56,978 nucleotides of DNA from IMG/VR virus record IMGVR_UViG_3300034102_004028, positions 1 through 56,978 of that record; one strand, written 5' to 3'. Positions 2,269-14,551 of the stretch are shown here, in pieces. The notes under the pieces are model-generated. The model had not been told where the DNA came from and did no database searches. It saw only the letters and a program-made list of their open reading frames with translations. How positions within the stretch are numbered: the first letter of the stretch is position 1; every line of letters begins with the position of its first letter. The translations under genes were made by a program, and so were the position numbers. Origin of the DNA: a virus.

Positions 2269-2496
2269 GTGATTACATTAGAAAACTTGACACCCGAACA
2301 AGTTGAAATGCTCAACATTCTTTGGTCTATGACCGAATTGTCTGAGGTTGAAGAATGGCAGGAAACTCTTACTGAAGAAGAAAGAGAAATGAGTGAGGCT
2401 CTTATTCGACTTGTGATTTTGGAATCTATGGATAAAATTATTACAAGTGATTTGAGTGATGCACAGGAAGTTTTGAAAAAGTTTACTAAGGGTTGA
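2269..2496 (+). CDS. Small acidic hypothetical protein
   Basis: 75 residues from the GTG at 2269. This start is chosen because an AAAGG ribosome site precedes it by six bases and because the consensus promoter at 2216-2244 puts the transcript start near 2251. The product is very acidic and mostly helical (ELSEVEEWQETLTEEEREMSEALIRL). Small acidic early phage proteins often bind or inhibit host enzymes, but that is analogy only. It is the first gene of a promoter-led run of small genes to about 2830. Confidence 0.6.
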   Translation: MITLENLTPEQVEMLNILWSMTELSEVEEWQETLTEEEREMSEALIRLVILESMDKIITSDLSDAQEVLKKFTKG

Positions 2497-2498
2497 TT

Positions 2499-2696
2499 AT
2501 GGATAAGTTTGATTTCATGGTGGATTTTCTGATTAATGATAAACAGAGGTCTTACGATAACATTTTGCTTGAAGATGAGGAACTTGAAAATGCTTCCTCG
2601 GCATTTGTCGAAAGTATTTTGCTGAATGCTTATAACGTCACTGACCGGCGACTTTATAAAACTACTCTGAAAAAAGTTACGGAGTTGGTAGAATGA
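2499..2696 (+). CDS. Small hypothetical protein
   Basis: 65 residues from the ATG at 2499, with AAGGG ending six bases upstream; this fits better than a TTG at 2493 overlapping the previous stop. Acidic and helical, with no recognisable motif. Its stop forms an ATGA overlap with the next small ORF (ATG 2693), so the two are probably translationally coupled. Confidence 0.55.
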   Translation: MDKFDFMVDFLINDKQRSYDNILLEDEELENASSAFVESILLNAYNVTDRRLYKTTLKKVTELVE

Positions 2697-2830
2697 GTCA
2701 CGAAATCGAGTTTCACTTTTATCTTGATGCATGGTTGTGGTGCCGGCAAAATGGTTTTGATTTTAAACGTGAATACATGGTGAAAAAAGATTTTAGAACC
2801 TGGACGCTTGCCATACCTGAAGATGTGTGA
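2693..2830 (+). CDS. 45-residue hypothetical protein
   Basis: ATG 2693 to TGA 2828-2830, coupled by ATGA to the previous gene. The product (MSHEIEFHFYLDAWLWCRQN...) is rich in aromatic residues, with Trp at 14, 16 and 37. It has no recognised family. Its last 20 codons contain the -35/-10 boxes of the next promoter (2808-2836), showing how tightly this region is packed. Confidence 0.5.
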   Translation: MSHEIEFHFYLDAWLWCRQNGFDFKREYMVKKDFRTWTLAIPEDV

Positions 2831-2836
2831 TACAAT
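2808..2836 (+). promoter_or_regulatory. Sigma-70-like promoter (TTGCCA-17-TACAAT)
   Basis: TTGCCA at 2808-2813, 17-base spacer, TACAAT at 2831-2836. It lies directly upstream of the gene at 2860 and matches the layout of three similar promoters at 3375, 4197 and 4737. Start expected near 2843, giving a leader of about 17 bases that carries GAGGA. Confidence 0.65.
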
Positions 2837-2859
2837 TCTTCCGTTTGTGAGGAATTATT

Positions 2860-3213
2860 ATGATGATTTATGTGAAATCTTCTTCAAAAAAGAAGAACAT
2901 TACAAAAAAGAAAAAAGCCGAATATGATGCATGGTTAGATTCGGTAAAAACCATGCCAGGAATCCAAGGACGCAAATTTACTGGTGCAAAGTTAGTAAGC
3001 ACTAACACACTTCCAAAATTGTCTGCTCCTCCTGGTCGAGAGACAACTTACTACAAAAGTGTTACAACCCCAGGTGGTGACTGCACAAAGCCAAACCTTC
3101 CTAAAGTTTATACCGGTACAGCCATGAAGGGTATTGGTACGTTGCACAAATCCAACGCTGTCCCAGTGTTCACGGATGAAGATATGCTGGCGCAGGCTTC
3201 GATGAGGAGGTAG
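2860..3213 (+). CDS. Conserved-looking basic hypothetical protein
   Basis: 117 residues, starting at the ATG at 2860 (a second ATG follows at 2863) behind a GAGGA site. The N-terminal third is highly basic (SSSKKKNITKKKKAEYDAWL); the rest is Gly/Pro/Thr-rich and probably extended, with a conserved-looking PPGRETTYYKSV and TPGGDC centre. No function is known to me. It has its own promoter (2808-2836) and is followed by a 40-residue membrane protein whose ATG lies two bases after its stop. Confidence 0.65.
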   Translation: MMIYVKSSSKKKNITKKKKAEYDAWLDSVKTMPGIQGRKFTGAKLVSTNTLPKLSAPPGRETTYYKSVTTPGGDCTKPNLPKVYTGTAMKGIGTLHKSNAVPVFTDEDMLAQASMRR

Positions 3214-3214
3214 G

Positions 3215-3337
3215 ATGATTATCGGACTATCAAACCTCTGGCTTGTCGCCTTAGGAGCGTTCCTAGGCGCTCTATTTGGTAGAACTTTAACATTCGGTTT
3301 TATGGCTGTTGCTTTTTTGATACAATTACTACTTTAG
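3215..3337 (+). CDS. 40-residue membrane protein
   Basis: ATG 3215 to TAG 3335-3337. AGGAGG at 3205-3210 gives a strong ribosome site inside the end of the previous gene. The product is almost wholly hydrophobic: about residues 4-21 (GLSNLWLVALGAFLGALF) and 27-40 could be two short membrane spans around an Arg. The size and topology are those of small phage inner-membrane proteins; role unknown. Confidence 0.55.
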   Translation: MIIGLSNLWLVALGAFLGALFGRTLTFGFMAVAFLIQLLL

Positions 3338-3374
3338 TATTACTGTTGTTTTTTTACAAATCTGCAAAAAATGG

Positions 3375-3402
3375 TTGCCATTCCTGCCGGAACCTGTAGA
3401 AT
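3375..3402 (+). promoter_or_regulatory. Sigma-70-like promoter (TTGCCA-16-TAGAAT)
   Basis: TTGCCA at 3375-3380 and TAGAAT at 3397-3402 with a 16-base spacer, in the 94-base gap before the GP88-family gene at 3432. Predicted start about 3409; AAGG follows at about 3421-3424 as ribosome site. Confidence 0.6.
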
Positions 3403-3431
3403 AGACTTTGTTGAGTTGATAAGGCAATCGA

Positions 3432-4181
3432 ATGAAACTTCTTTCTACTGGTAATCCTAAGGTCTTGAAAGGTCTTAAACAAGGCTTCAATACCTACATT
3501 TTGCACCTTGCACCCGCTAACGTTTCTGGTTATGAAACTTGTCCTAAGCGGACCGCTGGTTGTACCGCGGCATGTTTGAACACCGCAGGTCGCGGCGGTA
3601 TGTTCAAAAAAGGTGAATCGACCAATGTCATTCAAGAGGCACGTAAACGCAAAACAAAAATGTTTTTCGAGAACCGTACCGAGTTTATGGCACTTCTGGT
3701 TAAAGATATTGAATTGGCAATCAAGCAAAGCAAAAAATTGGATTTGGTTCCCGTTTTTCGCTTGAATGGCACTTCGGACTTATCGTTCGAAAAATATGAA
3801 GTTGTCCGTAACGGTCAACTATTCCGCAATATCTTTGCTGCCTTCCCTGATGTTCAATTTTACGACTACACAAAAATCCTTGGTCGTAAAGTGAAAGATA
3901 TTCCTAACTATCAATTGACCTTTTCGGCTGCCGATGGCAATGATACGGATGTCCTCCGTGCTATTGCTGAAGGTCTGAATGTCGCTACCGTTTTCGGTCT
4001 GAAAAAGACCGAGGCAATGCCTGAAACCTACAATGGTCGCCCCGTGTTTAACGGTGATGAATCTGATTTGCGATTCCTTGACCCCAAAGGTGTTATTGTT
4101 GGTTTGTATGCCAAAGGTAAGGCTAAAAAAGATACTAGCGGCTTCGTTAAGTATCCTACTATTATGTTGAAGGCCGCATAA
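3432..4181 (+). CDS. Phage GP88-family protein
   Basis: 249 residues. The N-terminus LSTGNPKVLKGLKQGFNTYILHLAPANVSGYETCP followed by a Cys-rich stretch (CTAACLNTAGRGG) is the signature of the phage "gene product 88" family, found in many unrelated phages. Cys residues near 37, 44 and 48 suggest a metal or iron-sulfur site (inference). Later segments (VFRLNGTSDLSFE, FYDYTKI, LTFSAADGNDTDV) form an alternating strand/helix pattern resembling a TIM-barrel-like fold, again inference. The biochemical role of the family is not established. It is a single-gene unit with its own promoter (3375-3402), and the next promoter follows directly. Confidence 0.75.
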   Translation: MKLLSTGNPKVLKGLKQGFNTYILHLAPANVSGYETCPKRTAGCTAACLNTAGRGGMFKKGESTNVIQEARKRKTKMFFENRTEFMALLVKDIELAIKQSKKLDLVPVFRLNGTSDLSFEKYEVVRNGQLFRNIFAAFPDVQFYDYTKILGRKVKDIPNYQLTFSAADGNDTDVLRAIAEGLNVATVFGLKKTEAMPETYNGRPVFNGDESDLRFLDPKGVIVGLYAKGKAKKDTSGFVKYPTIMLKAA

Positions 4182-5697: not shown

Positions 5698-6438
5698 ATG
5701 GCTAGAAAAGCAAACACCAGAATACATCTTGAGGATGAGCAACCAAAGATTACGAATGCACTTAAGGTTCGTATAGATGATTTAAAAACATTTGAGCCAC
5801 TGACAGAAAATCAAAAGATATTTTTTGATGCATATAAAAGAGGAGATTATTTTGTAGCATTGCATGGTGTTGCAGGTACAGGTAAAACTTTTTGTGCCCT
5901 ATACAAAGCACTAGAAGAAGTTTTGGATAAGAGTAATCCATTTAGAAAAATTATTCTTGTTCGTTCGGCCGTTCAATCTAGAGAGATTGGTCATTTGCCT
6001 GGTGATGTTACAGAAAAGATGGAAATCTATCAACAACCTTACAGACAAATTTGTGAGACATTGTTTGGTAGAAAAGATGCATATCAGAGACTTGAAGAAC
6101 AAGGTTTCATTGAATTCATTTCAACTTCATTCATTCGTGGTATGAGTTTTGATGATGCAATCATTATTGTTGATGAAATGCAAAACTTAACATTCGAAGA
6201 AATTGATACTGTTATGACCCGTGTTGGTTATCGCTCAAAGATTATTTGGTGTGGTGATTATAGACAAACAGACTTGAACAAAAAGAAAAATGATATGAGT
6301 GGCATTCTTAAATTTTTTGACATTGCATATCACATGGGAGCCTTCACAAGGATTGAGTTTACACCGGAAGATATCGTTCGAAGTTCTTTAGTGAAAGACT
6401 ATATCTTAGCTAAAATGGTTTATGAGGATAATAATTGA
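5698..6438 (+). CDS. phoH: PhoH-like ATPase
   Basis: 246 residues, the usual size for phage PhoH. Walker A GVAGTGKT is at residues 57-64 and Walker B IIIVDEMQN at 155-162, with a conserved RSAVQSREIGHLPGD segment and a GDYRQTDL sensor region. PhoH proteins are P-loop ATPases related to superfamily 1 helicases; they are common in aquatic phages, and their role (RNA metabolism is suspected in bacteria) is unsettled. The gene shares a TTGA overlap with the oxygenase that follows. No Pho box is apparent upstream; the nearest promoter is that at 4737. Confidence 0.9.
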   Translation: MARKANTRIHLEDEQPKITNALKVRIDDLKTFEPLTENQKIFFDAYKRGDYFVALHGVAGTGKTFCALYKALEEVLDKSNPFRKIILVRSAVQSREIGHLPGDVTEKMEIYQQPYRQICETLFGRKDAYQRLEEQGFIEFISTSFIRGMSFDDAIIIVDEMQNLTFEEIDTVMTRVGYRSKIIWCGDYRQTDLNKKKNDMSGILKFFDIAYHMGAFTRIEFTPEDIVRSSLVKDYILAKMVYEDNN

Positions 6439-7013
6439 TTGACAGTGCAAAATTTCTGGAAGAAAACGGCTATCTTTTTCTTCCAGACTTTATAGATAAA
6501 GATAGCTGTAGACTTATGGCTGAATCGATGATTGAAGCTGTAGAGTCTGGTCGAGGTGAAAAGGACCCTCAGTGCCCAATGTCCTATTCTTTCATTGATG
6601 TTTTTGATAGCGCACATGATGAAATTTTACCGCATCTTAAAAAAGTGAGTGGTAAAAATTTACTGAAAACTTTTAATTATTGTAGACTGTATCAACCGGG
6701 TGAAACTTTAGAAAGACATACGGACAGAGACTCATGTGAATATTCAATAACATTAACTCTCGGTTTTGAAGGTAAACCTTGGCCATTTTTTATTGAGGAC
6801 AAAAAAGGATTCGAAAAAGAAATTTTAGCTTCGGTTGGTGATGTGATTTTTTATAAAGGAATTGAAAGACCTCATTGGAGAAATTCATACAAAGAAGGGA
6901 AGTGGCAAGCACAAGTATTTTTTCATTACGTCGATGCCGAAGGTGAATATAAAAACCAACCTATAATTGAAATGTTTAGAAAAGAAAAAAATGTTTTTGT
7001 TGAAAAAACCTGA
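6435..7013 (+). CDS. 2-oxoglutarate/Fe(II) oxygenase family protein
   Basis: 192 residues from a TTG that overlaps the phoH stop, with GAGGA seven bases upstream. It shows the iron-binding facial triad of the double-stranded beta-helix dioxygenases: His95-x-Asp97 (LERHTDRDS) and a distal His147 in ERPHWRN, preceded by GDVIFYKG. Arg149 or Gln158/160 could hold 2-oxoglutarate. Such enzymes are frequent in T4-like aquatic phages. Substrates may be nucleic acid bases, proteins or small molecules; none can be inferred here. It sits between phoH and a nuclease gene. Confidence 0.75.
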   Translation: MIDSAKFLEENGYLFLPDFIDKDSCRLMAESMIEAVESGRGEKDPQCPMSYSFIDVFDSAHDEILPHLKKVSGKNLLKTFNYCRLYQPGETLERHTDRDSCEYSITLTLGFEGKPWPFFIEDKKGFEKEILASVGDVIFYKGIERPHWRNSYKEGKWQAQVFFHYVDAEGEYKNQPIIEMFRKEKNVFVEKT

Positions 7014-7656
7014 AGCACTAAATTTTGATTTGAATGCTGAAAATTCTCCTTCAGGTAGACTTTATAAAACACCTTCAGGAGAAAAATATCCTTCCGTTAC
7101 AACTATACTTTCTTCATACGGAAAGAAACAACTGTTTGAGTGGCGCGAACGTGTTGGTGCTGAGGAAGCAAATCGTATAGCAGCCAAAGCATCACGCCGA
7201 GGCACGGCTTTACATACCGTTTGTGAAAAGTACCTACTCAATGAATTGACAGGTATGAAACTTGCTAGTATGATTCCTTCAACAAAGGAACTTTTCTTTA
7301 AAATGAAAAGCTTGTTGGATGAAAACATAACAACGGTTTATTGCCTTGAACAAGCATTGTATTCTGATAGAATGCGTATCGCTGGCCGTGTTGACTGTAT
7401 CGCCGAATGGAATGGCAAAATTTCAGTTGTTGATTTCAAGTCATCTACCAATCAGAAAGAAAAAGAAAAAATTGGAAACTATTTCATGCAATGCACCGCA
7501 TATGCATTGATGTATGAAGAAATTGTAGGTGTACCCATTGAACAGATTGTTGTTTTGATTGGTACTGAAAATGGACCAGGTCAAGTTTTTATCGAAAAGA
7601 AAGATGATTACATTGAAGAACTGGAAAAATACGTGAGGAAACACCATGACAAATGA
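6991..7656 (+). CDS. RecB/Cas4-like PD-(D/E)XK nuclease
   Basis: 221 residues from the ATG at 6991; an upstream ATG at 6967 lies deeper in the oxygenase gene and adds a Lys-rich leader. With the 6991 start, the motifs are His75 (GTALHTVCE), Glu120, Asp135 (AGRVDCIAEW), Asp148-x-Lys150 (VVDFKSS) and a QCTAYALMY helix with conserved Gln/Tyr. This is the order found in RecB-type exonucleases. A role in DNA processing, recombination or host DNA breakdown is likely. The 3' end overlaps the first PP-loop gene by 11 bases, so the cassette is joined to this operon; an internal promoter lies at 7246-7274. Confidence 0.8.
   Translation: MFLLKKPEALNFDLNAENSPSGRLYKTPSGEKYPSVTTILSSYGKKQLFEWRERVGAEEANRIAAKASRRGTALHTVCEKYLLNELTGMKLASMIPSTKELFFKMKSLLDENITTVYCLEQALYSDRMRIAGRVDCIAEWNGKISVVDFKSSTNQKEKEKIGNYFMQCTAYALMYEEIVGVPIEQIVVLIGTENGPGQVFIEKKDDYIEELEKYVRKHHDK
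7246..7274 (+). promoter_or_regulatory. Sigma-70-like promoter inside the nuclease gene
   Basis: TTGACA at 7246-7251, 17-base spacer, TATGAT at 7269-7274. It is the nearest candidate promoter upstream of the PP-loop/Bug cassette beginning at 7646. Being inside coding sequence, it needs experimental support. Confidence 0.45.
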
Positions 7657-8665
7657 TGAAATTTATTTTTACAGTGAAGATGGCACAAAATTCAAATCAA
7701 AAATTAGTGCTATTGAATACTCACAAAAAACTGGTCAACAAATAAAATTTTATTTCCATGATGAAATCTATTCCAAAGTGGACTGGAAAAAAGAGTTGCC
7801 ACATGATTTGAATTATTATTACAAACAACAGGCTCTACGGCTTCGTGAAAAATATGACTATCTGGTTTTAGCATATAGTGGTGGAGCAGACTCAACTTGT
7901 ATACTCGAAACTTTTGTACATAACAATATAAAATTAGATAAGATTGTTTCTGTTGGTGCATTTAGTAAAGACTCTGCTTGGGGTGTTGATGAGAATCACA
8001 ACGGAGAAATTTATCATAATGTTATTCCTTATGTGAAAGAGTTGGGCTTGGAATCTATTACAGATATTGTCGATTATACGAAATATCTTGATGGTGATAA
8101 TTTTAAAAATTTGTCCATATATCAGCATGGTTCAAATTGGGTTTATGAGATAGGTTCTTTTTTTAGTGTTCACAACTTTTTTTGGAGAGATGCTGAAAGG
8201 ATTTTGATACCTAATGAATGGAAAAACAAAAAGGTTGGATTCATATATGGCTTAGATAAGCCAGAAATAAATTTTCATGAACAAGAGTTTGTTCTAAAAT
8301 TTACTGATGCTCCGGTTATACTTTACGGAAATTCAAGTGGTTACGAAAATGTTGAGAGGGTTAGATTCTTTTGGAACCCAGAATTTACCGAGATGACGGT
8401 TAAACAAGTTCAAGAATTGAAAAGAACCAGAACTGTCGGTGCAAATCAAAAAAACATAGCTAAAGCACTCTATAATCTCAGAAAACCTTTATCGTTTGAG
8501 TCTCCAAAAACCGGTAACGTTTTTTGGAGTTTGAGAGATACCTATCTTAAAGACATGAAAGATACTGAGTTATTTAAATTTTATAGTGATGGTTTGAAAG
8601 TTTTGGATTCAACTGTCGGTTTCAAGTCTGTTGTACCGATTCCAACCAAAAACTATCACATATAA
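7646..8665 (+). CDS. PP-loop ATP pyrophosphatase-like protein 1
   Basis: 339 residues. The PP-loop SGGADS is at 78-83 after a hydrophobic strand (YLVLAY), marking the N-type ATP pyrophosphatase fold used by enzymes that adenylate a substrate (asparagine synthetase, QueC, TilS, GMP synthetase). Residues 1-70 form a separate N-terminal part with FHDEIYSKVDW. The same part and the later motifs KVGFIYGLDKP and FWNPEF...KQV recur in PP-loop protein 3 (10850), so the two are paralogues. No glutaminase domain is present, so any ammonia or sulfur donor must come from elsewhere. The substrate is unknown. Annotation pipelines may call such proteins PAPS reductase-like or asparagine synthase-like. Confidence 0.75.
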   Translation: MTNDEIYFYSEDGTKFKSKISAIEYSQKTGQQIKFYFHDEIYSKVDWKKELPHDLNYYYKQQALRLREKYDYLVLAYSGGADSTCILETFVHNNIKLDKIVSVGAFSKDSAWGVDENHNGEIYHNVIPYVKELGLESITDIVDYTKYLDGDNFKNLSIYQHGSNWVYEIGSFFSVHNFFWRDAERILIPNEWKNKKVGFIYGLDKPEINFHEQEFVLKFTDAPVILYGNSSGYENVERVRFFWNPEFTEMTVKQVQELKRTRTVGANQKNIAKALYNLRKPLSFESPKTGNVFWSLRDTYLKDMKDTELFKFYSDGLKVLDSTVGFKSVVPIPTKNYHI

Positions 8666-8668
8666 ATA
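8661..8668 (+). promoter_or_regulatory. Possible T4-type late promoter (TATAAATA)
   Basis: An exact TATAAATA spans the stop codon of the first PP-loop gene, 33 bases before the ATG at 8701. T4-like late promoters need only this -10 element. If active, the small protein and the rest of the cassette would also be made late. Confidence 0.4.
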
Positions 8669-8700
8669 ATAATTAAAGGCTTTTCAAATTGGAGAAAAAA

Positions 8701-9075
8701 ATGCCAAAATATGTAAAAACAATAGTAAAAAAATCTAGTATTATTCCTTGGCTCGCTGATGGAGTAGTTTCAGCAGATTCTGTACATTTAACTGAAGCAG
8801 AGAGACAGTCAATTATTGATGCCCGCACCGAAGGCGAAAGTTTTCCTGGTTACATAGGTTTTAACGTTACGAATGTTGGAAATACTCAAATGGTTTCCTT
8901 CGAATTCGACACACTTGAAAATTTGAATAATTTTATCAATAAAACACAGAAACCAGACAGTGGAGTCTATGACGATAATTCTTTAATTGTAAAATACAAT
9001 AAAATGTTGGTTGCAAAAATTAAAGAACTTGGTTTGTCAAATTCTTATCAAGTTACCACTTCAATAGAAACGTAA
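8701..9075 (+). CDS. Hypothetical protein inside the PP-loop cassette
   Basis: 124 residues from the ATG at 8701, which has GGAG six bases upstream; a TTG at 8689 lies before the ribosome site and is rejected. The product begins MPKYVKTIVKKSSIIPWLAD and has strands and helices (QMVSFEFDTLENLNNFI) suggesting a small alpha/beta fold, perhaps ferredoxin-like. No family is recognised. There are no Cys or clear catalytic residues. Its place between two PP-loop genes suggests a partner, carrier or regulatory role in the same pathway (inference). Confidence 0.6.
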   Translation: MPKYVKTIVKKSSIIPWLADGVVSADSVHLTEAERQSIIDARTEGESFPGYIGFNVTNVGNTQMVSFEFDTLENLNNFINKTQKPDSGVYDDNSLIVKYNKMLVAKIKELGLSNSYQVTTSIET

Positions 9076-9089
9076 TACAATTTTATATT

Positions 9090-9932
9090 ATGCCTGGTCG
9101 TGATGATTGGATAAAAATAGAAAATGGTTCTTGCTCTTTTGATTTTTCTGATTTGAAAATTTGGAAAAAGAAAGAATGTATTGACTATGCCGTTGAGAAA
9201 ATGGTTGAAAAGTCGGAGAATCTTTATCTTGCTTTGAGCGGTGGACTTGATAGTGAATTTGCGGCCAACTGTTTAATCGAGAGGGGAGTAAAATTTACTC
9301 CTGTAATCATGGATATACACACCAATAGAATTGAGAATTGGTATGCTCATCGTTGGTGCTACGAAAATACAATAAAACCCTTAGTTATAACTCTGAGTGA
9401 GGAAGAAGTCGTAAAAACTTTTCCTAAAATTTCTCAAGAAAGAAATATTCCTTTTTATTGTTCGATACCTATTATTTTGTCAAAAATGGTTTCTCAGAGA
9501 GAAGGAAATCTAATTTTAGGTGGTGAGGAAATTATCGACAGAGATTACTTTTTGAGTGGTGAGTTCAACAAAATGTCCGAAAAAATTAGTTTTTGTGAAT
9601 ACGCCTTTTGTGTTGAGCAGGAAAATTCAAATCATATTGGTGGTTTTCTATCGTACACACCAGAACTTTTTCTTAATTGTTTGGAAGAAATTGACTACTC
9701 CAAACCAGGTCAAATTGCTCTGGCTGAATACTATGGAGTATTGCCAAGACCGAAAATAAATGCTAACATTAATCTGGCTTTGTTGCCAGGTTTAAAACGT
9801 TTGAAAAATATTTTGGACAAAGATAAAATCGTCAATGTTTATGAAATGGAAAATAAAGACAGCTTTATAGACCAGGCAAAAAAGTCAAAAAAGATTACGA
9901 TTCAAGCAAAAGAATTGATGTTGTTTAATTAG
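9090..9932 (+). CDS. PP-loop ATP pyrophosphatase-like protein 2
   Basis: 280 residues. The PP-loop SGGLDS is at 50-55 (YLALSGGLDSEFAANCLIERG), which is the asparagine-synthetase or QueC form. Unlike the paralogues at 7646 and 10850, it lacks their N-terminal domain and their VGFIYG motif, so it is a separate branch. A later segment NLILGGEEIIDRD may be part of the substrate pocket. It probably adenylates a carboxylate or carbonyl on an unknown substrate. No Shine-Dalgarno is visible before the ATG; translation may depend on the preceding gene. Confidence 0.7.
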   Translation: MPGRDDWIKIENGSCSFDFSDLKIWKKKECIDYAVEKMVEKSENLYLALSGGLDSEFAANCLIERGVKFTPVIMDIHTNRIENWYAHRWCYENTIKPLVITLSEEEVVKTFPKISQERNIPFYCSIPIILSKMVSQREGNLILGGEEIIDRDYFLSGEFNKMSEKISFCEYAFCVEQENSNHIGGFLSYTPELFLNCLEEIDYSKPGQIALAEYYGVLPRPKINANINLALLPGLKRLKNILDKDKIVNVYEMENKDSFIDQAKKSKKITIQAKELMLFN

Positions 9933-9941
9933 GTATTTTTT

Positions 9942-10853
9942 ATGAAAATTGTTATCTATTTTTTATTATTCTTTTTCCTATCCGTTGCTAAAGCAAAAGA
10001 TAACGTTGAGTTGATTATCGCATCATCTCCTGGTGGTTCTGTACATCGTTATGCATTGCATATACAACCTGCATTAGAAGCCGCACTAGGTAAAAATGTT
10101 ATCTTGACATTTAAGCCAGGTGGTAATGGACTTATTGCGGCAAAAGAGTTACACACTTCACCTAAAGATAAATTGACTCTGTTGATAGGCAATCTAAATT
10201 CTCCGGAAGTCTGGCGCGAGAATTTCAAAAATCAAAAAATCATTGATGTTCAGAGTGATATAACTCCCGTTGCTTTTTTAGGAACTATTCCTTCAATTAT
10301 CTTTTCGAAACCGAATGGAAATTACAGTAATTTTCGTGGAGCTTTGGAATTTGGAAAAAAAGAAAAGTTGTCCATGGCTATAGCTATGAATACACCCAAC
10401 TTCAAATTGATGGAAGATTTACTCAACAAATATAAACAAGAAGAAAACCTAACACTCGTTCCTTTTAGAACTGGCTCACAAGGATTGCTTGGTGTTTTAG
10501 GTGGACATGTATCATTAGGTGTAACGGTGATTGATGTTTTGATTCCAGAATTCGAAAAGGGTAGCATTGTACCTCTTGCATTAGTGTATGAATCTCGTTT
10601 AAAATCACTTCCCAATATTTCGACTTTGAGGGAGTTAGGTCTCTCAATAGAAAATGAAGATAGGTATTACAACAATTTTTTCTTGTGGGCTAATGTAGAT
10701 AAGAACAACGAAGAAGTTAACAAAGTAAGAAATGTTTTGTCGGAATTTTTGAACGGAAGTCAATCTGAAAAATTCCTATCTTCGATGTTTGTGCAATTTG
10801 GACAAAATAATGTAAGAACACCTGAAAAATACCTGAACAAAATTTTAAAATGA
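9942..10853 (+). CDS. Exported Bug/TctC-family solute-binding protein 1
   Basis: 303 residues with a signal peptide (MKIVIYFLLFFFLSVAKA, cleavage after AKA), so it is periplasmic. The mature protein follows the Bug (Bordetella uptake gene)/TctC Venus-flytrap pattern: ELIIASSPGGSVHRYA, FKPGGNGLIAAKEL, a GVLGGHVSLGVTV hinge segment and LPNISTLRELGL. Family members bind carboxylates or other small molecules for tripartite tricarboxylate transporters, but many Burkholderiales copies are orphans, as here: no TctA/TctB genes are present. It is more divergent than the second copy at 12045 (S-P-G-G where that one has T-A-A-G-G-G). Rare in phages; likely acquired from the host. Confidence 0.8.
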   Translation: MKIVIYFLLFFFLSVAKAKDNVELIIASSPGGSVHRYALHIQPALEAALGKNVILTFKPGGNGLIAAKELHTSPKDKLTLLIGNLNSPEVWRENFKNQKIIDVQSDITPVAFLGTIPSIIFSKPNGNYSNFRGALEFGKKEKLSMAIAMNTPNFKLMEDLLNKYKQEENLTLVPFRTGSQGLLGVLGGHVSLGVTVIDVLIPEFEKGSIVPLALVYESRLKSLPNISTLRELGLSIENEDRYYNNFFLWANVDKNNEEVNKVRNVLSEFLNGSQSEKFLSSMFVQFGQNNVRTPEKYLNKILK

Positions 10854-12043
10854 TTATGAATGAGATAATTAAAATGTCCTCTGATTACAACAGACAAGAC
10901 ATTTTCGGTTACTATACAGTCGGAAAATTGAAAATGTATAGCCAAATTGAGGCTGTAGAAGTTTCAAGTAAATTAAATTTGCCAATTAAATGGCACTTTA
11001 ATGATGAGGTCTATAGTAGTTTTGACTGGAGTGTTGAGCCGACCGAAAGTCTTACCGAGTTATATAAAAAAAGATGTGAGCAACTGCGGGAAAAATATGA
11101 CTACTTGGCATTATATTATAGTGGCGGAGCAGACTCCGACAACATCTTAAATCACTTCATAGAAAATAACATAAAACTTGATGAAGTGATTTCTATGACA
11201 GACTATCAAGGAACACAAGATAGAATGTCACAGTTTAATGCAGAAATTTTCGAAGTTGCGATACCAAAAGTAAAAGAAGCACAAAAAAAACAACCACATT
11301 TAAAACATACGATAATTGATACCACTGATTTTGTTTTAGATTCTTATAAATCACTAAATCTAGACCAGATTTATAATCAAAACTTTTCTTTTGCTCCGTT
11401 TACGCTTGTTAGAGGAAAAGTAAAGTATTCTCAACAACACTGGAAAGAAATGTTTTCTGTAGGTAAAAAAGTTGGCTTCATTTATGGTGTTGAGAAACCT
11501 AGACTTAGTGTGGATGACAATTTTAATTTTAATTATTTTTTTACTTGTGCTACAATTGCTGCCGCGACAACTCCGGAACTTCAGAGAGAAAACAATCCTT
11601 TCGACTTTACTGAACTGTTCTATTGGAGTCCTGATTTTCCAAAAATTCCAATAAAACAGGCTCATGTCGTAAAAAACTTTGTTAAAAGTCATGGCTTAAA
11701 TAAATTTAAAAGATATCCTAGAGCAATCAACGAAGTGATTCGGCAGTTACCTTCGGGAACAAATTTTTCTCTGCTACATAATGGAGACTTCCTTTTGAAT
11801 GATGAATTGAATCGTCTAATTTATCCTTATTGGTACAACATACCATATCAGTATAAGGCTATAAATCTTATTCTCTATGAAAAAGATATTTGGTTTATTG
11901 GAAAAATGAACACTGAAGAACAAGCCAAAAACTGGAAAACTATAACACAAAAAGTTTTAGAGATAACAAAAACAGATTATAAAAAACAATCTTTTTTAAA
12001 TAACTCTACATTTAGTAGCAAATTATATAACTTAGGAAAATAA
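10850..12043 (+). CDS. PP-loop ATP pyrophosphatase-like protein 3
   Basis: 397 residues, joined to the binding-protein gene by an ATGA overlap. The PP-loop SGGADS is at 91-96. The region before it (WHFNDEVYSSFDW, then REKYDYLALYY) and after it (ENNIKLDEVISM) aligns closely with the protein at 7646, as do VGFIYGVEKP and YWSPDFPKIPIKQ. This makes it a paralogue with an extra C-terminal segment of about 60 residues. It should be cytoplasmic and ATP-using; substrate unknown. The physical coupling to an exported binding protein on each side is the striking feature. Confidence 0.75.
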   Translation: MIMNEIIKMSSDYNRQDIFGYYTVGKLKMYSQIEAVEVSSKLNLPIKWHFNDEVYSSFDWSVEPTESLTELYKKRCEQLREKYDYLALYYSGGADSDNILNHFIENNIKLDEVISMTDYQGTQDRMSQFNAEIFEVAIPKVKEAQKKQPHLKHTIIDTTDFVLDSYKSLNLDQIYNQNFSFAPFTLVRGKVKYSQQHWKEMFSVGKKVGFIYGVEKPRLSVDDNFNFNYFFTCATIAAATTPELQRENNPFDFTELFYWSPDFPKIPIKQAHVVKNFVKSHGLNKFKRYPRAINEVIRQLPSGTNFSLLHNGDFLLNDELNRLIYPYWYNIPYQYKAINLILYEKDIWFIGKMNTEEQAKNWKTITQKVLEITKTDYKKQSFLNNSTFSSKLYNLGK

Positions 12044-12044
12044 A

Positions 12045-13010
12045 ATGAAAAAAATCATGTATGCATTGATAGCATTTGCTTTGAGCTTTAATGTCTATTC
12101 ACAAAGTCCAACGGACAAACAAACTGTAAAAATTATTGTACCAACAGCCGCTGGTGGTGGTTTAGATGCCATATCAAGAATTGTTGGTAAAAATTTATCC
12201 GAAATCATGAAAGTTCCGGTCATTGTTGAGAACAAACCTGGAGCAAACGGCATCATTGCGGCCAAAAGTGTTCTAAGTGAAGAATCAAATGGAAGAACTT
12301 TGCTTTTTTACGCACCACATTCCTACACTCTCAATAATCTTTTCACTGAATCTGGAAATCAAACATTTGAGTGGGATAAAGAGTTGACACCAGTTTCAAT
12401 GATGTATTGGAGTCCCTTCATTCTTACTGTTAACAAAAAGCTAAACGTCAACAATATGTCTGAGTTGAGAGAGAAATTTAAAAATAAAGAAATTTCATTT
12501 GGCAGTACAGGTTCCGGAACACCATTGCAAATCTACTCAGAAGTTATTTTTGATAAACTCGGAATAAAATCGGTTCACGTTCCTTACAAATCATTACCTT
12601 TGGTGGTAAATGATGTGTTGAATGGAACTTTAGATGTTGTTGTTGCTGGTACAGGCACTGTTGCACCACACATCAAAGCTGGAAATTTAGTACCTCTTTT
12701 GACCTTTTCGGATAAAGTTAATGCTGAATTTCCTAATGTGCAAACTCTGACAGGAACTTTTTCAGAGTATTCTAACTTGAAGGTTGTTGGTAGTTTTCTT
12801 GTGAGTAAAGATACAGACCCTGCAATCAGGGAAAAGTTAAGAAAAGACATTGAGCTTGCGAAAAGAAATACCATGGAAGAATTGAGACAAAGAGGCTTGA
12901 TTGATGCTTCGGAAAGCATTGTATTGGATGAGAAAAAAATGAAGCAGGTTGAGAAGAATTGGATTACCGCAGTCGAGAAGGTTAAGAGTAGGCAACAATT
13001 GCCGAAATAA
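12045..13010 (+). CDS. Exported Bug/TctC-family solute-binding protein 2
   Basis: 321 residues, the standard Bug length. A signal peptide (MKKIMYALIAFALSFNVYS) precedes QSPTDKQ. Canonical family signatures are present: VKIIVPTAAGGGLDAISRIVG, VENKPGANGIIAAK, FGSTGSGTPLQIYSE, VPYKSLPLVVNDVLNGTLDVV, and PHIKAGNLVPLLTFSDK followed by FPNVQTL. The ligand pocket therefore looks complete and the protein probably functional in the host periplasm. No transporter genes accompany it; it could feed a host TTT transporter, act in sensing, or have been adapted to shield the cell during infection (the last is speculation). It is the last gene of the cassette, three bases before the tmRNA promoter. Confidence 0.88.
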   Translation: MKKIMYALIAFALSFNVYSQSPTDKQTVKIIVPTAAGGGLDAISRIVGKNLSEIMKVPVIVENKPGANGIIAAKSVLSEESNGRTLLFYAPHSYTLNNLFTESGNQTFEWDKELTPVSMMYWSPFILTVNKKLNVNNMSELREKFKNKEISFGSTGSGTPLQIYSEVIFDKLGIKSVHVPYKSLPLVVNDVLNGTLDVVVAGTGTVAPHIKAGNLVPLLTFSDKVNAEFPNVQTLTGTFSEYSNLKVVGSFLVSKDTDPAIREKLRKDIELAKRNTMEELRQRGLIDASESIVLDEKKMKQVEKNWITAVEKVKSRQQLPK

Positions 13011-13012
13011 GC

Positions 13013-13041
13013 TTGACAGCTAAATAATAAACCACTATAAT
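13013..13041 (+). promoter_or_regulatory. Perfect sigma-70 promoter of the tmRNA gene
   Basis: TTGACA at 13013-13018, exactly 17 bases, TATAAT at 13036-13041. Predicted start is about 13048, just before the acceptor piece of the tmRNA. Both boxes match consensus. Confidence 0.9.
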
Positions 13042-13048
13042 AGTGGTT
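13030..13048. repeat. Inverted repeat over the tmRNA promoter -10 box
   Basis: AACCACTA-TAA-TAGTGGTT: perfect 8-base arms around a three-base centre, with TATAAT inside the symmetry. Because the transcript should begin near its right edge, it is a DNA rather than an RNA element: a candidate operator. Confidence 0.6.
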
Positions 13049-13320
13049 ATGGTTGTACGAAGCAACTAGAAAAGTGTTCTGGACGGGGGTGCAAATCCCC
13101 CCACCTCCACCAGAAATATATTGCACTTCACTGATAAGGAAGACTGGTCGGCTGTATTCAACTGGCTAGTGCAGTATTTTTCTGATGGGGGTGTACTCAG
13201 CTATTCGACAGGGCAACAAGTACAGAAGTGGACAACTCACCAGAGTAGGTGTAAAAACTAAATCAAGTAAACGCAAACGATGAAAAGTTCGCATTGGCAG
13301 CCTAAACGCTGACTAGGGTT
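13048..13320 (+). ncRNA. ssrA: Circularly permuted two-piece tmRNA
   Basis: The acceptor piece comes first: T-stem GGGGG (13085-13089), loop TGCAAAT, CCCCC (13097-13101), then CACCTCC, discriminator A and encoded CCA (13110-13112). An intervening segment of 74 bases (13113-13186), expected to be cut out, follows. The coding piece starts at 13187 with GGGGGTG, which pairs fully with CACCTCC and places a G3-U70 wobble as required by alanyl-tRNA synthetase. The conserved TTCGACAGGG lies at about 13204-13213. A P2 helix joins 13220-13227 to 13077-13084 (7 of 8 pairs). The resume codon GCA at 13273 opens a tag reading ANDEKFALAA, with TAA at 13303. Two-piece tmRNAs are known in alphaproteobacteria, cyanobacteria and some betaproteobacteria; the tag is of betaproteobacterial type. 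The 3' end is approximate. Confidence 0.93.
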
Positions 13321-13322
13321 TC

Positions 13323-13363
13323 GATAGGTTTCCTCGTAACAGAATAACCTATCATTTATTTTT
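13323..13363 (+). terminator. Hairpin terminator after the tmRNA
   Basis: GATAGGTT (13323-13330) pairs with AACCTATC (13346-13353), followed by ATTTATTTTT. The loop is 15 bases, so it is a moderate terminator; it might alternatively include the last tmRNA pseudoknot. Confidence 0.6.
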
Positions 13364-13374
13364 AGGAGAAAAAA

Positions 13375-13935
13375 TTGAAATATAAAATGTCTTTTGTAGC
13401 ACTTGCTATGGTTCTTTCAACTGCGGCATCCGCACAATCGGTTTCTTTGACTTATGGTTATAGAGATTCTGATAATGGAACAACACAAACCGCAACCGGA
13501 ATTTCAGCTAGGATGAAAATTTCTGATACTTTGAGTGGTGATGTTGGTATTGCAAATTTGCAAGATAGAGAAAAACTGACCAATGGACTTAGAAGTGAGT
13601 TGGGTTTGACTTATAGTAAACCTCTAGTTTCGGTTTTTTCAGGAAGTCTTAGACTTTCTCACGGATTCAAATCGAATTCGGGTAAAGAAACCATTCAATA
13701 CTACAATATTGAACCATCAGTAACAGCAAAAATTCCAGGAACAGAATTTTCTGCTAGAGTTGGATATCGTTATCGTGACACATACAGTAAAAATGATAGT
13801 GACAGGTCTGATACCACTCGTTATGCAGTCATGTATGACCTGACGAAAAAAGATAGAATTGCTGTAAATTATGATGACCAACGTGGTGTAGGCGCGGCAA
13901 AACAAACCTCGCTAGTATACACTCGTTCGTTCTAA
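13375..13935 (+). CDS. Small outer-membrane beta-barrel protein
   Basis: 186 residues from a TTG with AGGAG six bases upstream, a start well supported by spacing. A signal peptide (MKYKMSFVALAMVLSTAASA) is followed by QSVSLTYGYR. The mature part consists of alternating hydrophobic/polar strands (VSLTYGYRD, GISARMKIS, LGLTYSK, GSLRLSHGFK, FSARVGYRYRD, RYAVMYDL, DRIAVNYDD, TSLVYTRSF) ending in Phe, the usual BAM-recognition residue of porins. About eight strands would fit. It is expected in the host outer membrane. The gene follows the tmRNA and precedes a cell-wall hydrolase. A role in superinfection exclusion, permeability or lysis is possible; none is shown. Confidence 0.75.
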   Translation: MKYKMSFVALAMVLSTAASAQSVSLTYGYRDSDNGTTQTATGISARMKISDTLSGDVGIANLQDREKLTNGLRSELGLTYSKPLVSVFSGSLRLSHGFKSNSGKETIQYYNIEPSVTAKIPGTEFSARVGYRYRDTYSKNDSDRSDTTRYAVMYDLTKKDRIAVNYDDQRGVGAAKQTSLVYTRSF

Positions 13936-13993: not shown

Positions 13994-14551
13994 ATGCGAA
14001 GTAAACCAATACTTCTTACCATGTTTTTTTCTGCTTTTATCCTGTTTTTGAGTATGATTAATATTGACGTTGACAGGATACTTCCGATGAAGGTGAGCTA
14101 TTACTCACTTTCAAAGGATACACAAAGACAGATTACGTGTCTAGCAGAAAACATCTATTTCGAAGCTGCCCATGAACCAATCACTGGACAAAAAGCGGTA
14201 GCATTTGTAACAATTAATCGTGTACAAACAGGCAATTATGCCAATACAATCTGTGATGTTGTTTTCCAGAAAACGGGTGGAACTTGTCAGTTTTCCTGGT
14301 ATTGTGACAAGAAGTTTACCGATAAACGCTTGACAATCAGAGAAACAAAGTTGTATAATGACATTCGTGAGTTAGCAACACACATCGTCATAAACTTTGA
14401 AAAGTTGAAAGATGTAACCGAAGGAGCAACTTACTATCATGCCGACTATGTTAATCCGGGTTGGAAATTGGATAAAGTCGACCAAATTGGTCGGCACATT
14501 TTTTACAAAAGAAAAGGTGACAAAATTGACCGAAACAAGGAATTCATCTAA
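13994..14551 (+). CDS. SleB-family cell-wall hydrolase, probable membrane-anchored endolysin
   Basis: 185 residues with an AGGAG site. Residues 6-24 are a hydrophobic segment (ILLTMFFSAFILFLSMINI) with little charge, which could be a signal-anchor (SAR-type) sequence. The SleB/hydrolase_2 domain follows: CLAENIYFEAAHEPITGQKAVAFVTINR with likely catalytic Glu52, then TCQFSWYCD and ATYYHADYVNPGW, both standard for the family. It should cut peptidoglycan glycan strands in the periplasm. As the only free-standing lysin in the window, it is the best endolysin candidate; the next gene encodes a small membrane protein that could assist lysis. Confidence 0.85.
   Translation: MRSKPILLTMFFSAFILFLSMINIDVDRILPMKVSYYSLSKDTQRQITCLAENIYFEAAHEPITGQKAVAFVTINRVQTGNYANTICDVVFQKTGGTCQFSWYCDKKFTDKRLTIRETKLYNDIRELATHIVINFEKLKDVTEGATYYHADYVNPGWKLDKVDQIGRHIFYKRKGDKIDRNKEFI
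14330..14359 (+). promoter_or_regulatory. Sigma-70-like promoter inside the hydrolase gene
   Basis: TTGACA at 14330-14335, 18-base spacer, TATAAT at 14354-14359. It could drive the downstream membrane protein, AAA+ ATPase and dsbA-33-59 genes apart from the lysin. Confidence 0.6.

Follow-up and report, generated by a model that had tools for sequence, protein, structure and literature searches.

The 56,978-base IMG/VR record IMGVR_UViG_3300034102_004028, analyzed here in its entirety (the window) and possibly itself a genome fragment, carries tail, baseplate, tail-fiber, and replication genes of phage type together with a cassette of six genes that code for PP-loop enzymes, a small protein, and Bug-type (TctC-family) binding proteins. 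Comparison of this cassette with its relatives shows that an apparently virus-specific family of PP-loop enzymes, called PPa, and a predicted exported Bug receptor form a conserved, tightly spaced, co-diverging unit amid variable small-molecule enzymes. We propose, on a balance that tips neither way, that the cassette is a phage-borne modular system for the uptake and ligation of a small carboxylic acid.

The cassette comprises six intact plus-strand open reading frames between an exonuclease gene and a transfer-messenger RNA (tmRNA) gene, in the order PP1, small protein (SM), PP2, Bug1, PP3, Bug2, spaced -4 to +23 bases apart (Table 1). An earlier note on this DNA had described this order and tight packing, and all six reading frames lie where it had placed them. 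The paralogies that it had claimed are also borne out: PP1 and PP3 are 34% identical over 282 amino acids (E 8e-33) and have in common an N-terminal region and a VGFIYG motif, while Bug1 and Bug2, both of the TctC family, are 24% identical (E 1e-11). PP1 and PP3 belong to the PPa family and PP2 to a second one, PPb. The two families have only the PP-loop core in common (52 columns at 96% probability in a profile-profile comparison), and BLASTP gave no real match between PP2 and PP1 or PP3. The listed start codon of SM is TTG; the ATG at 8701 is a possible alternative.

Table 1. Cassette genes and neighboring features in the window
Feature	Position	Strand	Basis and remarks
PP1, PP-loop ligase-like enzyme of the PPa family, oxygenase/PP2-linked class	7646..8665	+	Motif SGGADS; AlphaFold2, Foldseek, PPa tree
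Small protein (SM), predicted dimeric alpha+beta barrel of the antibiotic-biosynthesis mono-oxygenase (ABM)/cyclase type	8689..9075	+	AlphaFold2, Foldseek
PP2, PP-loop family PPb	9090..9932	+	Motif SGGLDS; profile nearest NAD synthetase, TtuA, LarE
Bug1, predicted exported TctC-family solute-binding protein	9942..10853	+	PF03401, E 4.9e-15; "before PPa" position
PP3, PPa enzyme, Bug-linked class	10850..12043	+	Motif SGGADS; 4-base overlap with the Bug1 stop
Bug2, predicted exported TctC-family binding protein	12045..13010	+	PF03401, E 2e-35; direct 3' partner of PP3, gap of 1 base
Exonuclease, left flank	6967..7656	+	PHROG; 5' border of the exchanged block; outside the cassette
Permuted tmRNA, beta-proteobacterial type, right flank	13020..13396	+	Rfam RF01850, 124.6 bits; tag ANDEKFALAA; outside the cassette
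Putative exported protein, possibly an outer-membrane beta-barrel	13375-13935	+	Sequence features; no Pfam match above cutoff
PHROG "ferrochelatase"	6435-7013	+	E 4e-41; resembles 2-oxoglutarate (2OG)-Fe(II) oxygenase; no Pfam match

Linkage between PPa and Bug genes is the principal evidence for a unit. A search of viruses with PP1 returned 15 loci, an alignment-seeded search retrieved 439 IMG/VR stretches with PPa relatives, and a PP2-type search retrieved 142 stretches. We merged 168 loci into 120 nonredundant groups on the basis of shared identical proteins, built profiles, and mapped gene order. Because PP-loop searches supplied these contigs and the contigs in turn supplied the Bug profile, the weight is carried by internal controls: a Bug-like gene occurs in 70 of the 95 groups with PPa but in none of the 25 groups with PPb only (Fisher test, 3e-12), and Bug-like genes make up 84 of 661 genes (12.7%) no more than three genes away from PPa versus 7 of 801 (0.9%) at a distance of six or more (Fisher test, 1e-22; odds ratio, 16.5). 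A Bug gene on the same strand comes immediately after PPa in 43 cases; the median gap of these pairs, -4 bases, suggests coupled translation of the two genes, and inverted pairs likewise keep PPa 5' of Bug. Thus, the relatives keep the genes together and not scattered, and the PPa-Bug pairing recurs in at least dozens of distinct phages, all uncultured and mostly aquatic. Since the linkage recurs in most PPa-bearing contig groups, the cassette is more than a product of chance.

The two partners also diverge together. Across 41 pairs, distances among PPa proteins track those among their partner Bugs (Mantel r, 0.89), compared with r of 0.65 for Bug against an unpaired PPa of the same contig and 0.60 for Bug against PPb. 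With phage relatedness corrected for through the unpaired PPa, the partial correlation between PPa and Bug is 0.81 (p 0.0005), and removal of close relatives at rising thresholds gives r of 0.87, 0.81, 0.64, and 0.45. Five contigs carry two pairs, and in three of them the true partners give a better fit than swapped ones.

Moreover, the cassette appears to be swapped between phages as one block by recombination in the flanks. When the window is compared with locus L003, the relative nearest to it, synonymous divergence is 0.19 to 0.67 in the flanks and 1.0 to 2.0 in all six cassette genes, and the divergent block has sharp edges near 7650 and 13,200, with identity dropping just past the exonuclease gene. 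The ratios of nonsynonymous to synonymous divergence (dN/dS) for the six genes, rough values because dS is near saturation, range from 0.12 to 0.41, and so all six proteins are maintained by purifying selection.

A tree of 143 PPa sequences, built by a fast method and containing several long branches, separates members with Bug as the next gene from those with an oxygenase or PPb next, with four changes between the two states over 81 labeled rows. PP1 falls in the class followed by oxygenase or PPb and is thus without a dedicated Bug partner, while PP3 falls in the Bug-followed class. The duplication of a PP-loop/Bug pair that the earlier note had proposed is rejected, as a recent event, for the window on this tree, in which PP1 and PP3 represent old, separate classes. 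Tandem PPa-Bug pairs do exist in other relatives (L019, L042, L127, L143, and L148), and the nearest relatives of Bug1 mostly likewise stand directly before a PPa.

What the PPa enzymes might catalyze is suggested by their predicted fold. The AlphaFold2 model of PP1 has a predicted local distance difference test (pLDDT) score of 95.6 and a predicted template modeling (TM) score (pTM) of 0.93, and its best solved Foldseek neighbors are asparagine synthetase B (AsnB), carbapenam and beta-lactam synthetases, TilS, and LarE. As these neighbors reach TM scores of only about 0.25 to 0.43, and about 0.3 to 0.43 for the synthetase domain, the modeled assignment of PP1 to the PP-loop class is firm, whereas AsnB-like carboxylate activation is only the likely reaction type. 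The near-invariant residues among 79 PPa sequences are S78, G79, G80, D82, S83, D98, D143, G202, K205, F241, K253, and Q254, of which S78, G80, and D82 of the SGGxDS core are fully invariant. Close structural matches to PP1 are exclusively uncharacterized proteins of uncultured phages, and PDB sequences gave no match to the PPa profile at E of ≤1. Neither PP1 nor PP3 matched Pfam Asn_synthase or TIGR01536, to which PP2 showed weak similarity (E 0.048 and 0.037, respectively).

Several more familiar assignments were tried and rejected. The cassette PP-loop proteins score far below the cutoffs of curated tRNA-modification families (MnmA, ThiI, TilS, and TtuA), and a tRNA-modification reading falls below cutoff in Pfam, PHROGs, NCBIfam, and PADLOC. 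A 3'-phosphoadenosine-5'-phosphosulfate (PAPS) reductase reading fares no better, with PP1 reaching E 0.14 against PHROG 424 and a PPb relative reaching E 1.8e-4 across just 60 residues. The premise that these are not ordinary tRNA-modification or PAPS enzymes therefore holds for PP1 and PP3, which match no such family above cutoff. A QueC/Qat reading was likewise below cutoff in Pfam, PHROGs, NCBIfam, and PADLOC, and the five window proteins scanned (Bug1 excluded) matched none of the PADLOC antiphage defense families, Qat and others included.

PPa has so far been seen in viruses alone. A motif-seeded scan of 84,980 prokaryote species genomes gave ten stretches with no PPa relative among them, and in 50,697 phage records neither three PPa queries nor one PPb query found a match. 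Because the genome scan hangs on a single motif, and the bacterial scans for both PPa and Bug2 are seed limited, "virus-only" is a provisional description of the family.

PPb profiles give weak-to-moderate matches to LarE, TtuA, and NAD synthetase, and a PDB profile search reached NadE at E 2e-7. The AlphaFold2 model of SM (pLDDT, 86) resembles the antibiotic-biosynthesis mono-oxygenases and cyclases, with RslO4, SnoaB, and ABM proteins as its top Foldseek matches (probability, 1.00; best E, 7e-4). SM relatives are present in other cassettes, and an SM-profile search of IMG/VR brought just two extra loci.

On the receptor side, Bug1 and Bug2 score 56.2 and 123 bits against PF03401, for which the gathering cutoff is 27. 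An N-terminal hydrophobic stretch, a heuristic indicator and not a secretion assay, was found in 83 of 87 Bugs versus 2 of 150 PPa proteins, and Bug1 has such a signal-like stretch. The best PDB match of Bug2 is Bug27 (E 2e-26), followed by a terephthalate-binding protein. These receptors belong with the tripartite tricarboxylate transporters (TTT), the known ligands of which are mostly dicarboxylates (PMC5812351). TctA genes lie beside Bug or PPa in several related contigs, and L017 contains a complete tctC-tctB-tctA row (5731-8367) next to genes for PPa, PPb, Rieske, B12-type radical S-adenosylmethionine (SAM), and ATP-grasp proteins. A DctP-type receptor, from another transporter class, occurred once among cassette neighbors. 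Bug2 also matched three fecal "Bacteriophage sp." records (MT835824, which is flagged UNVERIFIED and unannotated, MT836965, and MT835892); we set these aside, because they also match TctA, as ordinary tct operons would, and probably represent bacterial sequence that entered the phage collection.

The related cassettes vary around the PPa-Bug unit. Their commonest layout is PPa, then a fatty acid (FA)-hydroxylase or Rieske oxygenase, then PPb, then one or more PPa-Bug repeats, with 2OG-Fe oxygenases alongside. Besides these three oxygenase types, relatives carry radical SAM/SPASM and B12-type radical SAM enzymes, and further partners include ATP-grasp, amidoligase, carbamoyltransferase, AMP-binding ligase, and amidohydrolase proteins. 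For instance, L007 has a Nod/Nol-like carbamoyltransferase gene (2338-3837) between PPb and FA-hydroxylase. An FA-hydroxylase query of the phage collection found two Acinetobacter phage records at 27%. The cassette sits between exonuclease and tmRNA genes in the window clade; in T4-like relatives, tail-fiber genes lie on one side of it and, on the other, a gene that PHROG labels as head-tail adaptor and that by position is neck gene gp13, with gp15 after it. Bacterial contamination was rejected as a source, with relatives lying amid tail-fiber, neck, phoH, exonuclease, and tmRNA genes. A second cassette family, exemplified by L074 (902-9986) and its relatives L073, L078, L079, L083, and L086, has two tandem PPa genes, mostly plus Bug. 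These cassettes adjoin genes that, to judge by sequence, are nucleotidyltransferase-like and methyltransferase-like, which makes a surface-sugar context likely.

AsnB-type enzymes activate carboxylates and TTT ligands are mostly dicarboxylates, and for these reasons an import-and-ligation reading fits the cassette. Under this proposal, Bug would be secreted to the periplasm and capture a (di)carboxylate-type ligand, which would enter through a TctAB permease, usually that of the host, although TctA is encoded by some of the phages themselves and the full tctCBA set by one. PPa, as its modeled fold suggests, would adenylate the carboxylate with ATP and join it to an amine or ammonia through an amide-type bond, much as asparagine and beta-lactam synthetases do, and PPb together with oxygenase, ABM-fold, or radical-SAM proteins may then modify the product further. 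In this model, every PPa-Bug pair would have a single substrate of its own, and this would account for both the co-divergence and the tandem pairs. The product might feed metabolism, modify the virion, DNA, or the surface of the host, or act in chemical competition. Of the linked small-molecule pathway that the earlier note had envisaged, the linkage, the division into cytoplasmic PP-loop and exported Bug proteins, and the small-molecule theme stand, while the origin by pair duplication does not.

Several observations weigh against this proposal. No TctA or TctB was found among the window cassette and neighboring proteins scanned, and most related cassettes lack both. A Bug gene is missing from the available DNA of 25 of the 95 PPa groups, many of them on truncated contigs. 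The PPa reaction type is read from fold class, with TM scores of about 0.4 and marginal Foldseek E-values against solved enzymes. Co-divergence could come partly from joint inheritance of adjacent genes and not from matched specificity. Finally, many bacterial Bugs are orphans for which a role in signaling rather than transport has been suggested (PMC5812351).

A broader formulation, which we advance tentatively and with somewhat more doubt than belief, is that the cassettes represent a virus-invented biosynthesis, in which phages would have evolved PP-loop ligases of their own for carboxylate activation, each in step with a dedicated secreted receptor, and would join them with exchangeable oxygenases and ligases to produce a variety of small molecules or modifications during infection. 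In a rival reading, the enzymes would build a modified small molecule or part of a glycan for use outside the cell, and Bugs would bind this product, or fragments of it, in the periplasm for self-protection, retrieval, or superinfection control and would not import a substrate. The enzyme mix does resemble natural-product and surface-sugar clusters, and the position between tail-fiber and head-tail adaptor genes in T4-like relatives would suit that role, but TctA/TctB permease genes in several cassettes indicate import and no exporter was identified among the recurring neighbor clusters annotated; we consider this reading unlikely. Still less probable, in our estimate, is that the cassette modifies phage DNA, tRNA, or a virion protein and that Bug merely supplies a building block. 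The sulfurtransferase-like PPb profile (LarE, TtuA, and MnmA) and the carbamoyltransferase and amidoligase neighbors speak for it; however, PPa and PPb match no tRNA- or DNA-modification family above cutoff, and we know of no tRNA-, DNA-, or virion-modification system paired with an exported receptor, which also counts against it. That these are generic auxiliary metabolic genes, host genes without relation or shared function that accumulated at a hypervariable site, is very improbable: the locus is a recombination hotspot of variable gene content and TctC genes abound in Betaproteobacteria (PMC5812351), but the strength of the association, the pair-specific co-divergence, the exchange of the block as a whole, and the failure of the motif-seeded scan to find PPa in bacterial genomes all disfavor a chance collection.

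The host of the window phage is probably a member of the Betaproteobacteria because the flanking tmRNA is of the beta type. The eight relatives checked in the window clade all have a beta-proteobacterial permuted tmRNA, with tags such as ANDEKFALAA, immediately 3' of their cassettes. The window tmRNA is a useful host marker and noteworthy in phages in its own right. The two bacterial relatives found for Bug2 come from an Alcaligenaceae bacterium and Ramlibacter (28 to 32% identity), and Bug families are hugely expanded, with abundant TctC genes, in Betaproteobacteria (PMC5812351). The putative exported-protein gene beyond the cassette adjoins the tmRNA and a putative cell wall hydrolase gene (13994-14551), an arrangement kept in relatives. 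Upstream of the exonuclease gene, the "ferrochelatase" label is probably wrong, given the protein's resemblance to oxygenases.

If the proposal of uptake and ligation is true, abundant uncultured phages encode a chemistry program of their own that goes beyond borrowed host genes. The pairing would give a concrete reason for phage-borne Bug receptors, and the cassette yields testable predictions on the uptake and products of infected aquatic Betaproteobacteria. Also, an orphan class of periplasmic receptors would gain a genetic partner, which could help to assign ligands to the large families of orphan Bugs in bacteria.

Comparison with known systems places the cassette near several of them. 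Like TTT receptors (TctC/Bug, PF03401), Bug1 and Bug2 match the family, are predicted to be exported, and, for Bug2, are nearest Bug27; unlike them, they are phage encoded, occur one-to-one with a virus-only ATP-using enzyme, and usually lack TctAB. PPa shares the SGGxDS core with the AsnB superfamily (asparagine, beta-lactam, and carbapenam synthetases), the source of the top Foldseek matches of PP1, but lacks their N-terminal glutaminase domain and has a new N-terminal region, TM scores of about 0.4, and no PDB sequence match. LarE, TtuA, and NH3-dependent NAD synthetase are found by the PPb profile, yet PPb lies far below their NCBIfam cutoffs, and its gene neighborhood does not resemble that of lactate racemase, tRNA thiolation, or NAD synthesis. 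No close bacterial homolog marks the cassette as host-derived auxiliary genes, the seed-limited scans having given no PPa with the family motif and 28 to 32% identity at best for Bug2. No paper in the open-access library searched unites phage, TctC, and PP-loop, none there brings together three of the four topics of phage-encoded proteins, asparagine synthase, PP-loop, and auxiliary metabolic genes, and as far as we searched the combination is unknown in described phages, as the earlier note had supposed. The SUP05 phage contigs in which tctA is listed as an auxiliary metabolic gene, along with a 2OG-Fe oxygenase, offer a protein-domain match only, and the passage that lists them mentions no PP-loop or TctC cassette (PMC4164917). 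Cyanophage pstS provides a precedent for a phage-supplied periplasmic binding protein, in that case for phosphate, that is thought to feed a host permease (PMC10976474). However, pstS is described as host acquired (PMC10976474), whereas the receptor in the present cassettes is tied, within a multigene module, to ligase-like enzymes seen only in viruses. To our knowledge, the coupling of virus-specific, ligase-like enzymes to dedicated receptors makes this a system of a new kind, built from parts of known folds.

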